DNA from: Rhodanobacter humi
GTDB lineage: Bacteria > Pseudomonadota > Gammaproteobacteria > Xanthomonadales > Rhodanobacteraceae
DNA: 64,000 bases
Assembly (NCBI RefSeq): GCF_041107455.1
Contig: NZ_JBGBPY010000001.1
Location: 310,001-374,000, forward strand
Reading direction: 5' to 3'
Numbering within the stretch: position 1 is the stretch's first letter; the number at the start of each line of letters is the position of its first letter. The position numbers and the translations under genes are program-made. The notes under the pieces were generated by a model. The model was not told where the DNA came from. It saw nothing but the letters and a program-made list of their open reading frames with translations, and ran no database searches. This document shows positions 44,668 through 55,517 of this stretch, one piece after another.

Positions 44668-44694
44668 GACGAATGGCGTCGTCGGAAATCGACA
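44668..44694 (-). promoter_or_regulatory. ECF-type promoter P3 (TGTCGA-N17-CGTC)
   Basis: On the minus strand TGTCGA (44694-44689), 17 bp ending GACGCCATT, then CGTCGT. The spacer starts TTTC and ends GCCATT like P2 (54276-54302), and the -10 matches P1 (53138-53164). Transcription would start near 44661, 40 nt before the ATG at 44621 or 85 before 44576. Confidence 0.65.
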
Positions 44695-44756: not shown

Positions 44757-45629
44757 TCAAACTGACGCGGCGATCCGCCCCACTTCGGCCAGCACGGCGC
44801 TGCGCCCAGCCGCGTCCGCCGTCGAGCCTGCCAGGTAGGTCGTCACCAGCAATGGCTTGCGTTGCGGCGGCCAGAAGATCGCGACATCGTTGGTTTCATC
44901 GTGGGCGCCGCTGCCGGTCTTGTCGCCCGCCTGCCAGCTGGAGGGCATGCCGGCACGCAGCTTGTCGAGGCCGGTGCTGGCGGCGCGCATCCACGCCGCC
45001 AGCCGCTCGCGCGAAGCCGCGGACAGCATGTCGCCGAGCAGCAGGGCGCGCAGGTTGCCGACCATGGCATCCGGCGTGGTGGTGTCGCGCAGGTCGCCCG
45101 GCGCGCCGTCATTGAGCTCGGGTTCGTAGCGGTCCAGCCGGGTGAGAGGATCGCCCAGCTTGCGCGCGAACGCCGTCACCGCAGGCGGCCCGCCCAGGTT
45201 GCGCAGCAGCAGGTTGTCCGCCGTGTTGTCGCTCACCGTGATCGCCGCCTCGCACAGTTCGGCCACGCTCATGCCCGGCGCACCCACGTGCTTGCTGGTC
45301 ACCGGCGCCCAGGACAACACCACGTCGCGCCCGAACACCACGCGCCGGTCCAGCCGTTCGACGCCGCGATCCACCCGCGCCAGCACCGCACCCACCGTCA
45401 GCAGCTTGTGCGTGCTGCACATCAGGAAGCGTTCGTCCGCGCGATGGCCGTGGCGACGACCATTGCCGGTGTCGAGGATGGCCACGCCCAGGCGCCCGCC
45501 ATGGCGCCGCTCCAGCGCGGCCAGCCGGGCTTCGACATCCGATGTGCGCCCAGCGCGCGCGAACGCGGGGCCGAGGGCGAGCGCCGAGGCGCCCAGCAAG
45601 GTGGTTTTCAGCAGGGTACGTCGATCCAT
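44757..45629 (-). CDS. bla: Class A beta-lactamase, Tat-type signal
   Basis: 290 residues. MDRRTLLKTTLLGASALAL is a twin-arginine signal. Active-site boxes are complete: S72-T-H-K75 (SxxK), S133-D-N135, E169-P-E-L-N173 (the Glu166 loop) and K237-T-G239. Ser-His in place of the common Ser-Thr-Phe-Lys is a mild variation. It should hydrolyse penicillins and perhaps cephalosporins in the periplasm. No ampR-type LysR regulator is adjacent. The methyltransferase gene lies upstream on the same strand, 107 bp away. Confidence 0.95.
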   Translation of the reverse strand: MDRRTLLKTTLLGASALALGPAFARAGRTSDVEARLAALERRHGGRLGVAILDTGNGRRHGHRADERFLMCSTHKLLTVGAVLARVDRGVERLDRRVVFGRDVVLSWAPVTSKHVGAPGMSVAELCEAAITVSDNTADNLLLRNLGGPPAVTAFARKLGDPLTRLDRYEPELNDGAPGDLRDTTTPDAMVGNLRALLLGDMLSAASRERLAAWMRAASTGLDKLRAGMPSSWQAGDKTGSGAHDETNDVAIFWPPQRKPLLVTTYLAGSTADAAGRSAVLAEVGRIAASV

Positions 45630-45736
45630 GGGAGTTCCTTGACGGGTGCACGGGAAACGCATCGAGCCGCCACTCTGCATGCATGCCCGGACTTTTCCGG
45701 GCGGTGCATGTGGCAAGGTCGAGGCAGCTCGCCGGC

Positions 45737-50302: not shown

Positions 50303-51154
50303 ATGACCCCGCTGCAGCACTTCATCGAGTCCCACCCGCGCCTGTTCGTGCTCACCGGCGCGGGCTGCAGCACCGCGTCGGGCATTCCCGACTACCGCGA
50401 CCGCGATGGCCTGTGGAAACGCGCACCGCCGGTCACCTTCACCGCCTTCATGCAGGAGTTGCCCACCCGCCGCCGCTACTGGGCGCGCAGCCTGGTGGGC
50501 TGGCGCCGCTTCGGCCACGCCCAGCCGAACGCCACGCATCACGCGCTGGCCGCGCTGGAACGGCAAGGCAAGGTCGAACTGCTGGTGACACAGAACGTGG
50601 ACGGCCTGCACCAGCGCGCCGGCAACGCGAACGTGGTCGACCTGCACGGCCGGCTCGACACCGTGCGCTGCATGGCCTGCGACTGGCGTGGGTCGCGCCA
50701 CGATTTCCAGCGCGCGCTGGTCGAGCGCAATCCGCACTGGGCCGACCTCGACGCCGCCGATGCGCCGGATGGCGACGCCGACCTGGAGCACCAGGACTTC
50801 GCCAGCTTCGACGTGCCGCCGTGTCCGCGCTGCGGCGGCATCGTGAAACCGGACGTGGTGTTCTTCGGCGAAAACGTGCCGCGTGATCGCGTGGCCGCCG
50901 CCATGGACGCCTGCCGCAGCGCCGACGCGATGCTGGTGGTCGGCTCCTCGCTGATGGTGTATTCCGGCTACCGCTTCGCCCACGCCGCAGCGCAGGCCGG
51001 CAAGCCCGTCGCCGCCGTCACGCTGGGCCGCACCCGCGCCGACGCGCTGCTCGCGCTGAAGGTGGATGCGCCGTGCGAGGAAGCGCTGGACTTCATGCTC
51101 GCATCTGCCTCGCCAGACATGGCGCTCCACGCCGTCACGGCGCCCGCTGCCTGA
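50303..51154 (+). CDS. SIR2-family NAD-dependent protein deacylase
   Basis: 283 residues. NAD-binding LTGAGCSTASGIPDYRD, catalytic His in VDLHGRLD, TQNVDGLHQRAG, and zinc Cys pairs CMAC and CPRC are all present; it resembles the SIRT4-like class II group. It probably removes acyl groups from lysines in the cytoplasm. The ATG at 50303 is preferred to a TTG three codons upstream. The 75 bp encoding TRADALLALKVDAPCEEALD recur, 92% identical, at 51932-52006. Confidence 0.93.
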   Translation: MTPLQHFIESHPRLFVLTGAGCSTASGIPDYRDRDGLWKRAPPVTFTAFMQELPTRRRYWARSLVGWRRFGHAQPNATHHALAALERQGKVELLVTQNVDGLHQRAGNANVVDLHGRLDTVRCMACDWRGSRHDFQRALVERNPHWADLDAADAPDGDADLEHQDFASFDVPPCPRCGGIVKPDVVFFGENVPRDRVAAAMDACRSADAMLVVGSSLMVYSGYRFAHAAAQAGKPVAAVTLGRTRADALLALKVDAPCEEALDFMLASASPDMALHAVTAPAA

Positions 51155-51304: not shown

Positions 51305-51589
51305 TCAGCTGCGTTTCTTCGCAGTGAGATAGACCAAACCCTTGTCGCGCCTGCAGACCGCGATCACGGTGACCAGCACGACTTTGTCGTCCACCTGATA
51401 GACGAGCCGATAACCGGCCGTGCGCAACTTGATCTTGTAGCAGTCCGGCATGCCGTGCAGGCGTGCGGATGGCACGTGCGGCTGTTCCAGCCGCTCAGCC
51501 AGCTTGTGCTTCAGTTGCTCGCGGATGCCAGGCGCCAACTTGCGCCATTCCTTGAGCGCCGATTCCACGAACGCCAGGCTATAGCTCAT
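51305..51589 (-). CDS. RelE/ParE-superfamily toxin
   Basis: 94 residues: MSYSLAFVESALKEWRKLAPGIREQLKHKL, LHGMPDCYKIKLRTAGYRLVYQVDDKVVLVTVIAVCRRD. The basic core and the RLVYQV strand fit RelE-type mRNA interferases that cut mRNA on the ribosome. It overlaps the antitoxin by 11 nt and reads after it. Confidence 0.92.
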   Translation of the reverse strand: MSYSLAFVESALKEWRKLAPGIREQLKHKLAERLEQPHVPSARLHGMPDCYKIKLRTAGYRLVYQVDDKVVLVTVIAVCRRDKGLVYLTAKKRS

Positions 51590-51824
51590 CGAGCTTGACC
51601 TTCACCCGTTTCTCGCCGTTGCGCTCGCGCACCAGCTCGGCAAGCTCGAGATCCTCCAGCCGTTCCAGCAGGCGCTTGTACGTCTCGGCAGGCACCAGGT
51701 AGGCGCTTGGCTTGTTGTGCACCAGCACCGCGACCGACTCGCCGTCGGCCGCCTCGATCACGGCGCTGGGATTGCGCTTGAGCTCAGTGATGCTGATGCT
51801 TGCATCGGCAAGGATGGCTTCCAT
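51579..51824 (-). CDS. Type II antitoxin, Phd/YefM (RelB-like) family
   Basis: 81 residues: SISITELKRNPSAVIEAADGESVAVLVHNKPSAYLVPAE is the Phd/YefM DNA-binding fold; the acidic helical tail LERLEDLELAELVRERNG would wrap the toxin. It is first in the operon, and its start codon lies inside an 11-bp inverted repeat, the probable site of autorepression by the toxin-antitoxin complex. Confidence 0.92.
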   Translation of the reverse strand: MEAILADASISITELKRNPSAVIEAADGESVAVLVHNKPSAYLVPAETYKRLLERLEDLELAELVRERNGEKRVKVKLDEL

Positions 51825-51920: not shown

Positions 51921-52034
51921 ATGACCGACAGCCGCACCTGCGCCGATGCGTTGCTCGTGCTGAAGGTGGATGCGCCGTGCGAGGAAGCGCTGGATTTCCT
52001 GCTCGCGGACGCAGCTGCCGCATCCTTCGCCTGA
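51921..52034 (+). pseudogene. Remnant of a second sirtuin gene (3' end only)
   Basis: The frame reads CADALLVLKVDAPCEEALDFLLADA before its stop, matching the end of the intact sirtuin (51028-51102). 69 of 75 bp agree, and five of the six differences are silent C/T changes at third positions. That pattern means both copies evolved under protein selection before this one lost its upstream part. The toxin-antitoxin module lies between the two copies. Confidence 0.7.
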
Positions 52035-53137: not shown

Positions 53138-53164
53138 TGTCGATGTGCGGCTCGCCCGTTCGTC
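53138..53164 (+). promoter_or_regulatory. ECF-type promoter P1 (TGTCGA-N17-CGTC)
   Basis: TGTCGA at 53138-53143, 17 bp, CGTCGTCAC from 53161. The predicted start near 53171 leaves about 36 nt to the ATG at 53207, enough for the GGAG site. The same core recurs at 54276 and at 44694 (minus). TGTCGA/CG(A/T)C is, as I recall, the ECF42 sigma motif. Confidence 0.7.
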
Positions 53165-53206
53165 GTCACAGTGAAGACCGCCCTGCCACCCATCTGGAGA
53201 TCCACC

Positions 53207-53650
53207 ATGTCCGGCACCGTTCGCCTGCTGCGCGTGTTCACCGCTCCACCCGAACGCGTCTATCGCGCCTTCCTCGACCCCGCCGCGCTGGCCAAGTGGC
53301 TGCCGCCGGACGGCTTCACCTGCACCGTGCACGAACTCGACGCGCGCGTCGGCGGCCGCTACCGCATGAGCTTCAACAACCTCAGCAGCGGCAACGGCCA
53401 CAGCTTCGGCGGCACATACCTGGAACTGCAGCCGAACCGGCGCATCGTCCACGACGACCGCTTCGACGACCCCAACCTGCCCGGCACCATGGTCACCACC
53501 ATCGCCTTGCGCGAGGTGAGCTGCGGCACCGAAGTGCAGATCGAGCAGGCCGGCATCCCCGACGTGATCCCCACCGAGCAGTGTTACCTCGGCTGGCAGG
53601 AATCGTTGACTCTGCTGGAACGGCTGGTGGAACCGACGATCCCGGGCTGA
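53207..53650 (+). CDS. SRPBCC/AHSA1 (Aha1-like) family protein
   Basis: 147 residues: VFTAPPERVYRAFLDPAALAKWLPPDGFTC is the START-like signature, with GGRYRMSF and TLLERLVEP at the end. These proteins hold hydrophobic ligands in a helix-grip fold; the substrate is unknown. GGAG precedes the ATG. It opens a run of stress-type genes (VOC, DGPF/YciI, GST) and lies directly behind promoter P1. Confidence 0.9.
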   Translation: MSGTVRLLRVFTAPPERVYRAFLDPAALAKWLPPDGFTCTVHELDARVGGRYRMSFNNLSSGNGHSFGGTYLELQPNRRIVHDDRFDDPNLPGTMVTTIALREVSCGTEVQIEQAGIPDVIPTEQCYLGWQESLTLLERLVEPTIPG

Positions 53651-53710
53651 GCCGCCTTCGCCACAGGCCATGAAACAGCGCGTTCAACGCGCCACACCAG
53701 GAGAATCCCC

Positions 53711-54190
53711 ATGACGAGCAAGAACACGATCTGCCTCTGGTACGACGGCACCGCCCTCGACGCCGCGACGTTCTACGCCAGGACGTTCCCGGACAGCGCC
53801 GTGGGCGCCGTCCATCGCGCACCCGGCGACTACCCCGCGGGCAAGCAGGGCGACGTGCTGACGGTCGAGTTCACGGTCATGGGCATCCCGTGCCTGGGCC
53901 TGAACGGCGGCCCCGGCGTCCCGCATACCGACGCGTTCTCGTTCCAGGTGGCCACCGACGACCAGGCCGAAACCGACCGCCTGTGGAACGCGATCATCGA
54001 CAACGGCGGCCAGGCCAGCGCCTGCAGCTGGTGCAAGGACAAGTGGGGCCTGTCGTGGCAGATCACCCCGCGCATGCTGATGGCCGCGATCACCGACCCG
54101 GACCCCGCCGCGGCCAAGCGCGCGTTCGACGCCATGATGACGATGACGAAGATCGATATTGCAGCGATCGAGGCGGCGCGGCGCGGCTGA
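53711..54190 (+). CDS. VOC family protein, PhnB/3-demethylubiquinone-methyltransferase-like fold
   Basis: 159 residues: TICLWYDGTALDAATFYARTFPDSAVGAVHRAPGDYP, GIPCLGLNGGPGVPHTDAFSFQV and SWCKDKWGLSWQITPRML are the hallmarks. Despite the database name no methyltransferase activity is implied. AGGAG precedes the ATG. It starts 60 bp after the SRPBCC gene and should share P1. Confidence 0.92.
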   Translation: MTSKNTICLWYDGTALDAATFYARTFPDSAVGAVHRAPGDYPAGKQGDVLTVEFTVMGIPCLGLNGGPGVPHTDAFSFQVATDDQAETDRLWNAIIDNGGQASACSWCKDKWGLSWQITPRMLMAAITDPDPAAAKRAFDAMMTMTKIDIAAIEAARRG

Positions 54191-54275
54191 CGATGGCAAC
54201 GATCTGTCGCCGAACATGGGGCAAGACCTGCGACTCAAAATGCATCTTGTCATGCAACGTCAATTTCGACAGTAA

Positions 54276-54302
54276 TGTCGATTTCGACAGGCGCCATTCG
54301 TG
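54276..54302 (+). promoter_or_regulatory. ECF-type promoter P2 (TGTCGA-N17-CGTG)
   Basis: TGTCGA at 54276-54281, 17 bp ending GCCATT, then CGTGGTAAC. Compare P1 CGTCGTCAC and P3 GCCATT-CGTCGT. Two inverted TCGACA copies (54266 and 54284) surround the -35, making a TCGACA-GTAA-TGTCGA type dyad. The predicted start is near 54309; the gene starts at 54394. Confidence 0.6.
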
Positions 54303-54393
54303 GTAACCGTGGCACGCCTCGATGTGGCCGCCGCCCCGGCCGGCAAGGTCCGCCGGTTTCACTCCAGCCTTCACCCCCAAGGAGCAATACGCA

Positions 54394-54750
54394 ATGCGGT
54401 ACATGATGTTCATCAAGCACCCCACGGACTATGACCACAGCGACGTCCCGCCCGCCCTGTTCGAAGCGATGGGTGGATTCATCGCGGAATACGTGCAAAA
54501 GGGCATGTTCATCGACGGTGCGGGGCTGAAACCACTCGCGAAGGGAACGCGCGTCCGCCTCACCGGCGGCAAGGTGATCGCGTCCGATGGTCCATTCGCC
54601 GAGGCGAAGGAGGTCGTAGGCGGATATTCCCTGATCGAGGCCCCCACGCACGCGGACGCCGTCGAGCTGGCCACGAAGTTCATGGAGCTGCACCGCACCT
54701 ACTGGCCCGGGTTCGAGGGCGAGTCCGAGGTACGTCCCCTCGAGGAATGA
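54394..54750 (+). CDS. YciI-like DGPF domain protein
   Basis: 118 residues: MRYMMFIKHPTDYD, then LTGGKVIASDGPFAEAKEVVGGYSLIEAPTHADAVELA, with the DGPF motif at about 68-71. DGPF proteins are the standard genomic neighbours of ECF41/ECF42-type sigma factors, but here no sigma gene is adjacent; the next gene is a GST. AAGGAG lies before the ATG. Biochemical role unknown. Confidence 0.92.
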   Translation: MRYMMFIKHPTDYDHSDVPPALFEAMGGFIAEYVQKGMFIDGAGLKPLAKGTRVRLTGGKVIASDGPFAEAKEVVGGYSLIEAPTHADAVELATKFMELHRTYWPGFEGESEVRPLEE

Positions 54751-54756
54751 GGGAGC

Positions 54757-54816
54757 AAGGTGTCAGGGACCATTCGCACGCACAGACAGCCTTCCAAGGA
54801 TTGTCCCTGACACCTT
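54757..54816. repeat. 14-bp inverted repeat with adjacent tandem 12-mer
   Basis: AAGGTGTCAGGGAC (54757-54770) and its exact complement (54803-54816) lie between the DGPF and GST genes. GACACCTTTTCT then occurs twice in tandem. It may end the DGPF transcript; the T-rich tail supports this. Confidence 0.65.
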
Positions 54817-54863: not shown

Positions 54864-55517
54864 ATGATCCCCACCATCACCGCCTTTGAAAGCTCGCCCG
54901 ACCGCGGCCAGGGCCTCGCGCGCGACATGCGCGTGCGCTGGGCGCTCGAAGAAGCGGGCCAGCCTTGCGACGTTCGCCTGGTTTCGTTCAAGGCGATGAA
55001 GGAACCCGCGCATCGCGCGCTGCACCCGTTCGGGCAGATTCCCACCTACGAGGAAGGCGAACTCGTCCTGTTCGAATCGGGCGCCATCGTGTTCCACATC
55101 GCGCAGCACCATGCGGGCTTGCTGCCGCAGGACGCGAACGCCCGGGCGCGCGCAATCATGTGGATGTTCGCCGCGCTCAACACGGTGGAGCCGCCCATCC
55201 TCGAACTGCAAACCGCGAAGTTCACGGAAGGCGACAAGCCCTGGACCGGGGAGCGCCTGCCGCTCATCAAGGATCGCATCCGTCACCGGCTGGGCGAGCT
55301 TGCCGTCCGCCTCGGCGAGGCCGACTGGCTCGACGGCGCGTTCAGCGCGGGCGACCTGATGATGGTGCACACGCTGCAGCGGCTGAGGCCCTCGGGCCTG
55401 CTGGACGAGTATCCGAGCCTTGCCGCCTATGTCGCGCGCGGTGAAGCACGGCCGGCGTACAAGCGAGCGTTCGCGGCGCAGTTGGCAGTGTTCACTGGCA
55501 AGCCGCCGGCCGGCTGA
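54864..55517 (+). CDS. Glutathione S-transferase family protein
   Basis: 217 residues: thioredoxin-like N-terminal part (ITAFESSPDRGQGLARDMRVRWALEEAGQPC, HPFGQIPTYEEGELVLFESGAIVFHIA) and a helical C-terminal domain. It likely conjugates or reduces electrophiles with glutathione. AGGAG precedes the ATG. It follows DGPF/YciI and may be co-expressed, though the inverted repeat between them could stop transcription. Confidence 0.92.
   Translation: MIPTITAFESSPDRGQGLARDMRVRWALEEAGQPCDVRLVSFKAMKEPAHRALHPFGQIPTYEEGELVLFESGAIVFHIAQHHAGLLPQDANARARAIMWMFAALNTVEPPILELQTAKFTEGDKPWTGERLPLIKDRIRHRLGELAVRLGEADWLDGAFSAGDLMMVHTLQRLRPSGLLDEYPSLAAYVARGEARPAYKRAFAAQLAVFTGKPPAG

Follow-up and report, generated by a model that had tools for sequence, protein, structure and literature searches.

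Candidate promoters of a distant ECF42-group sigma factor before scattered genes of Rhodanobacter humi

Introduction

Two short sites in the genome of Rhodanobacter humi, one before an SRPBCC–VOC gene pair and one before a DGPF (YCII) gene, resemble each other and the promoters of ECF sigma factors, and the question raised by this locus is which sigma factor, encoded where, would read them. The original prediction, made from a stretch of 64,000 nucleotides (hereafter the window, C1:310001-374000 in contig coordinates), was that both sites belong to an ECF42 sigma factor encoded at another locus.

The ECF42 motif that it gave, TGTCGA/CG(A/T)C, agrees with what is reported for RpoE10, an ECF42 factor of Sinorhizobium meliloti: three promoter sequences are given for it, all of the form TGTCGG-N17-CGTC (spacers counted here), and its gene lies downstream of a YCII gene (PMC6180224). 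In the same report, overexpression of RpoE10 raised six genes; its targets include a gene pair for a predicted hydrophobic-ligand binder and a glyoxalase-like protein, and it also activates an operon on the megaplasmid pSymB, that is, in trans (PMC6180224). Control in trans of such genes by an ECF42 factor was thus already known. ECF42 factors can also function in a foreign host: a switch based on one from Xanthomonas campestris is reported to have worked in S. meliloti (PMC10880074). Other members of the group are Sven_0747, Sven_4377, and Sven_7131 of Streptomyces venezuelae (PMC8999054; PMC9023288) and ECF-10 of Pseudomonas putida, which has been linked to oxidative-stress and antibiotic sensitivity (PMC8999054). 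The TPR extension of ECF42 factors is described there as needed for activity, with both its partner and the cue unknown (PMC8999054; PMC9023288).

Promoter-Like Sites in the Window and the Genes behind Them

The first site, P1, occupies 53138..53164 on the forward strand: TGTCGA (53138-53143) is followed after 17 bases by CGTCGTCAC (53161-53169), which gives TGTCGA-N17-CGTC, and an ATG of the SRPBCC gene lies 42 bases downstream. P2 (54276..54302, same strand) likewise has TGTCGA (54276-54281), 17 bases, and then CGTGGTAAC (54299-54307), 91 bases ahead of the ATG of the DGPF gene; its single departure from the consensus is CGTG in place of CGTC. The list of sites in the original prediction was right for these two and missed a third, P3 (TGTCGA-N17-CGTC, 44694-44668 on the reverse strand, i.e., 44668..44694), which stands 46 bases ahead of the gene for a 265-aa protein. 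The layout TGTCGA-N17-CG[AT]C is therefore matched in full at P1 and P3, and P2 is one base off. The TGTCGA of P2 is flanked on both sides by TCGACA half-sites (at 54266 and 54284), and the site overlaps a 17-nt tandem near-repeat at 54256-54290 (AACGTCAATTTCGACAG / AATGTCGATTTCGACAG).

Behind P1 lie the SRPBCC (AHSA1) gene (53207..53650, forward strand, 147 aa; Pfam PF08327, 1.4e-30) and a VOC-type gene of the 3-dmu-9_3-mt family (53711..54190, forward strand, 159 aa; PF06983, 1.8e-45). For the former, ATG 53207 is the more likely start, since the alternative GTG at 53171 would coincide with the expected start of transcription. P2 precedes the DGPF/YCII gene (54394..54750, forward strand, 118 aa; PF03795, 1.9e-8), which is followed on the same strand by an inverted repeat (54757..54816; 17-nt arms, 94% complementary, with 26 nt between them) running into TTTT. 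This repeat may end the DGPF transcript ahead of the glutathione S-transferase (GST) gene (54864..55517, forward strand, 217 aa; GST_N, 4.8e-11); a terminator scan with a loop limit of 8 did not call it. The gene behind P3 (43824..44621, reverse strand) encodes a protein whose N-terminus looks by eye like a signal peptide and which has no match in Pfam or NCBIfam.

Two other features of the window were noticed. A Beta-lactamase2-domain gene (44757-45641, reverse strand) ends about 63 bases before P3 and runs in the same direction as the gene for the exported-looking protein. A toxin–antitoxin pair of the ParE/YefM type (51305-51824, reverse strand), downstream of a Sir2-family gene, is flanked by two 76-nt copies, 92% identical, of the 3' end of that gene (51027-51102 and 51931-52006), as if the pair had arrived with a partial duplication.

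The Extended Consensus Carries the Signal

The loose motif TGTCGA-N17-CG was given too much weight in the original prediction. Its 8 occurrences in the window compare with an expectation of 4.19, and 6 of 100 shuffles reach this number, which is thus within chance; genome-wide it has 31 matches against 18 for the reversed pattern, and it was rejected as stand-alone evidence. Significance resides instead in the extended consensus TGTCGAT-N11-CC[GA]TTCGTC. Thirteen sites, namely 11 of the 12 exact genome matches to TGTCGA-N15-TTCGT (the one before a GH39 gene being excluded) together with L014 and L060, yield TGTCGAT-N11-CCGTTCGTCGT. The likeness between P1 and P2 does extend past the core, as had been claimed; the trailing "nAC" that they share falls outside the consensus, which ends at about CGTCGT.

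When the 10 of these sites that lie beyond the window, themselves chosen by pattern, are turned into a weight matrix, P3 scores 30.8, P1 29.3, and P2 26.1 bits. The best other position in the window reaches 12.4 bits, and the top score in 12 random 64-kb sequences from an order-2 Markov model is 16.4 bits. The two matching sites first noticed, P1 and P2, therefore stand far above background.

Genome-wide, TGTCGAT-N16-CGT has 14 matches against 2 for the reversed pattern. Three of these (L007, L009, and L011), which have neither TTCGT nor CTCGT and no recognised gene of the set described below in their frames, were dropped. A search allowing one mismatch was too noisy (41 matches against 20 reversed), and of the 29 hits that contained a mismatch L060 (CGTCGA) and L014 (CTCGTCG) alone were retained. 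L020 and L028, first met in the loose-motif search of the genome, belong to the 12 strict matches. The reversed-pattern control understates the background: a wrong-spacer pattern (N16) matched 333 times over the 147 genomes of the family, or about 2 per genome, unrelated to the presence of the sigma factor, so that single matches prove little.

A Single DUF6596 Sigma Factor Encoded Far from the Window

No Sigma70_r2 match lies within the window, and the nearest one (C1:251111-251308) is about 59 kb outside it; for this domain, the statement that no sigma factor is nearby holds. The genome has 19 Sigma70_r2 matches in total and one match to DUF6596, the ECF42-type extension, so that the search for a factor of this type, suggested with the original prediction, ends at a single ECF sigma factor of 425 aa (C1:3825718-3826995, minus strand). 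DUF6596 is, in 97% of cases, the C-terminal part of sigma proteins, and a survey of 16,854 prokaryote genomes found genes with it in 30% of them (PMC11119718). The extension expected of an ECF42 factor is about 200 residues long, lies at the C-terminus, and contains TPR. In the R. humi protein, Pfam places region 2 (PF04542) at residues 23-79, region 4 (PF08281, r4_2) at 119-170, and DUF6596 at 188-288; it reports no sigma region beyond 2 and 4, and no TPR repeats in the extension at E 0.001. Among named genomes, Rhodanobacter sp. C06 and DHB23 carry its closest relatives (97% and 92%, respectively).

The sigma gene is the last of four in an operon, DGPF–VOC–RibD_C–sigma, which lies behind a motif site of its own (L013). 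The YCII gene (L013:1029-1448) comes first. An ECF42 factor is expected to have no anti-sigma gene beside it; here the three genes ahead of the sigma gene are those for YCII, VOC, and RibD_C, and downstream of it the adjoining 1218 bases contain no same-strand, ATG-started frame of at least 70 codons. The sigma gene and P1 are separated by 3.46 Mb in contig coordinates; should the 4.09-Mb contig be circular, the distance the other way round would be about 0.62 Mb. A DGPF gene present at the window without a linked sigma gene had suggested control from another locus, and a sole DUF6596 sigma factor, far away and behind the same promoter, supports this.

A Candidate Regulon Scattered over the Genome

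About 13 such candidate promoters are scattered over the genome. Each of the 12 strict matches has a reading frame starting 31-120 bases downstream (starts chosen by eye); the motif, which might have been as common inside genes as upstream of them, thus stands before a reading frame in all 12 cases. Eleven of the 12 precede genes of recurring families or paired exported proteins, a set that was defined by these same sites, so that the independent check on it comes from other genomes. In addition to SRPBCC–VOC behind P1, the downstream genes encode DGPF proteins (P2, L006, L008, and L012), two paralogous exported-looking proteins (P3 and L004), YceI (L005), RibD_C (L020), GST (L028 and L060), DUF899 and DUF1428 (L014), and the sigma operon DGPF–VOC–RibD_C–sigma (L013 and L071). 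The twelfth strict match (L010), which has a poorer -10 and lies before a GH39 gene, is probably there by chance. Of the YCII genes of the genome, 5/8 stand directly behind such a site.

Motif and Sigma Factor in 147 Genomes of the Family

Across 147 genomes of the family, the strict motif TGTCGA-N15-TTCGTCG has 509 matches against 8 for its reversed form. It is present in 106 of the 115 genomes with the sigma factor (506 matches; the other 9 sigma-bearing genomes are without it) and in 3 of the 32 without the factor (3 matches), where presence was scored as a DUF6596 match, 12 of the 32 sigma-less genomes were assigned by exclusion, and some of the assemblies without the factor are incomplete (76% at the lowest). 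The association is strong (Fisher p 1.5e-19, uncorrected for kinship), and it recurs inside genera: in the 13 genera that hold both states, the mean motif count is higher with the sigma factor in 12 and tied in 1. The wrong-spacer pattern N16 occurs 2.38 times per genome with the sigma factor against 1.84 without (p 0.19); a background exists, yet it does not track the sigma factor. YCII genes number 152 in 25 sigma-bearing genomes, picked from the 115 to match the sigma-less ones by genus, against 42 in all 32 sigma-less genomes.

The motif also recurs before the same kinds of genes. Among the motif loci listed by the search, 30 were compared, each in a different genome and all in four genera (g5, g14, g24, and g26) that do not include Rhodanobacter itself; the downstream frame matches a protein of the R. 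humi set in 21 cases; L094, with a YCII match at only 16.9 bits, was left out of these. Six further loci precede genes for DUF1428 (4), DUF1801 (1), or DUF4287 (1), and DUF1428 is shared with the R. humi site L014. At the remaining three (L089, L092, and L094) no gene of the set was recognised downstream, and two of them, L089 and L094, lie in genomes without the sigma factor. The promoters of L099 and L103 are identical and thus not independent, and SRPBCC does not recur among the 30 loci.

The tie to the sigma factor is less uniform for the exported family. The R. humi protein behind P3 has a paralogue (L004:680-1393, reverse strand) with an ECF42-type promoter ahead and, like it, no match in Pfam or NCBIfam; family matches, some of them weak, were found in 52 of the 147 genomes, and none of 25 members has a Pfam family. 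At 30 loci of the family, that of R. humi included, the 400 bases ahead of the match contain the strict motif in 14 and a looser one in 3 more, and several of the closest relatives are without it; this indicates that the link to the sigma factor is not uniform. For the copy in the window, the predicted structure has a mean pLDDT of 80.2, with values of at least 90 for 138 of its 265 residues, i.e., a confident predicted core, and the predicted fold matched no solved structure at E 0.001 in a library of solved structures.

Sites before Relatives of the Sigma Factor in Many Phyla

Eighty loci of relatives of the sigma factor, from many phyla and with 63-97% identity, were chosen by sequence likeness to the factor. 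Within 2 kb upstream, TGTCG[AG]-N17-CG[AT]C was found at 54 of them on the same strand and at 2 on the other, with 7 of the contigs ending inside this span. When the -10 is restricted to CGTC, a spacing of 17 occurs at 38 loci and each other spacing from 12 to 23 at no more than 5, except 20 (12 loci), which is probably an echo of CGTCGTC. The -10 itself appears to vary with lineage: it is CGAC mostly before actinobacterial, acidobacterial, and gemmatimonad sigma loci (e.g., L110, L113, L126, L133, and L140) and CGTC mostly before gammaproteobacterial and Paenibacillus loci (e.g., L107, L115, and L148), with exceptions such as L121. Perhaps this difference reflects a lineage split in ECF42 promoter preference.

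The SRPBCC Locus within the Genus

An orthologue of the SRPBCC gene is present in 9 of 15 genomes of the genus (71-100% identity), and P1 is retained at 8 of the 9 loci, where TGTCGA lies 65-72 bases ahead of the matched region and the site scores 23.0-31.7 bits. The sigma factor was found in 7 of the 8 genomes that keep P1 (G147 stands outside that count). The ninth genome, G127, has no DUF6596 match in an assembly that is 95% complete; its SRPBCC gene is 94% identical, and its P1 site falls to 17.4 bits. Two conserved bases are changed there: the -35 is TTTCGA instead of TGTCGA, and TCCGTC stands in place of TTCGTC, with the core CGTC untouched. Since the core is kept and two sigma loci elsewhere (L123 and L125) are likewise preceded by TCCGTC, most weight falls on the altered -35. 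The promoter thus appears to have weakened in a sigma-less relative, one genome counting as one event.

The arrangement around the VOC gene differs among these relatives. In 3 of 8 (G095, G147, and G127) the GST gene directly follows VOC, with P2–DGPF sitting between the two in R. humi; in the other five, no GST gene was seen near VOC within the stretch compared.

Discussion

Together, these comparisons favour the reading that an ECF42-group sigma factor, whose gene lies elsewhere in the genome, uses P1, P2, and P3 as its promoters, a prediction from sequence to which we give a probability of about 0.9. The R. humi factor is like RpoE10 in its link to YCII, in the N17-CGTC layout, and in its glyoxalase-like candidate targets in trans; like the ECF42 factors of S. 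venezuelae, it has a C-terminal extension (with TPR in those factors) and a YCII-type neighbour, which is conserved in the group, and ECF-10 of P. putida belongs to the same group. It differs from RpoE10 in the -35, which ends in A here against TGTCGG there, and in the number of its candidate promoters, about 13 against six raised genes in S. meliloti (PMC6180224).

Another ECF factor with a similar -10, for example of the ECF41 type (TGTCAC/CGTC), could in principle be the one that reads these sites: the genome has 19 Sigma70_r2 matches to choose from, and the ECF41 promoter of S. meliloti likewise ends in CGTC (PMC6180224). We consider this unlikely, since the motif tracks the DUF6596 factor over 147 genomes and inside genera, and precedes the loci of relatives of this very factor in many phyla. 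Nor is TGTCGA-N17-CGTC likely to be the operator of a DNA-binding repressor or activator, a very improbable reading that the inverted half-sites at P2 (TCGACA ... TGTCGA ... TCGACA) might suggest. No such half-sites were seen in the sequence inspected around P1 and P3; upstream of the sigma loci, 17 is the commonest spacing, and the motif lies almost always on the same strand as the sigma gene (54 against 2 of 80); and the RpoE10 promoters, as reported, share the layout (PMC6180224). A chance likeness, such as GC-rich DNA (68% in the window) might produce, would account for the lack of significance of the loose motif there and for the roughly two wrong-spacer matches per genome, and is nonetheless hardly credible for sites that score 26-31 bits against a random maximum of 16.4, that belong to 12 strict genome matches of which 11 precede genes of the recurring set, and, in the case of P1, that are retained at 8 of 9 orthologous loci.

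If P1–P3 are indeed ECF42 promoters, an ECF42-type sigma factor, active via its C-terminal extension and some cue, would join RNA polymerase, and the resulting enzyme would recognise TGTCGA at -35 and CGTC at -10. Transcription would then proceed from P1 into SRPBCC–VOC, from P2 into DGPF and perhaps GST, and from P3 into the gene for the exported protein, and, besides its own operon, DGPF–VOC–RibD_C–sigma, the factor would drive some nine other units at scattered positions. Recruitment of the polymerase by the factor and control through the extension are inferred by analogy with characterised ECF42 systems. Positive feedback of the factor on its own operon is suggested by the operon promoter alone; activation of that operon is predicted here, in contrast to S. 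meliloti, where the site before the sigma operon of RpoE10 is reported as not activated (PMC6180224), which calls for caution in assuming autoregulation in R. humi.

More generally, we lean towards the view that ECF42 factors in this bacterial family govern a large regulon dispersed over the genome and are not local self-regulators. One sigma factor would serve at least a dozen unlinked units, all taken from a common repertoire (DGPF, VOC, SRPBCC, RibD_C, GST, YceI, DUF899, DUF1428, DUF1801, DUF4287, and the exported family); units would be gained as promoter-plus-gene pieces, as P2–DGPF between VOC and GST may have been, and promoters would erode after loss of the factor. This broader proposal is weighted lower than the assignment of P1–P3 because G127 keeps the core CGTC, with two bases changed. 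What this case adds is the apparently larger size of the predicted regulon, its scatter, and its loss together with the sigma factor. A scattered ECF42 regulon this large was not found in the literature searched, a search that lay outside the main ECF42 papers.

The enzyme families involved invite the guess that the regulon serves to clear reactive or foreign small molecules, and its content suggests that it may act in the detoxification or repair of small-molecule damage or of small molecules themselves. The candidate target promoters, with the sigma-less relative as a natural control, would provide ready reporters for finding the cue to which ECF42 factors respond.
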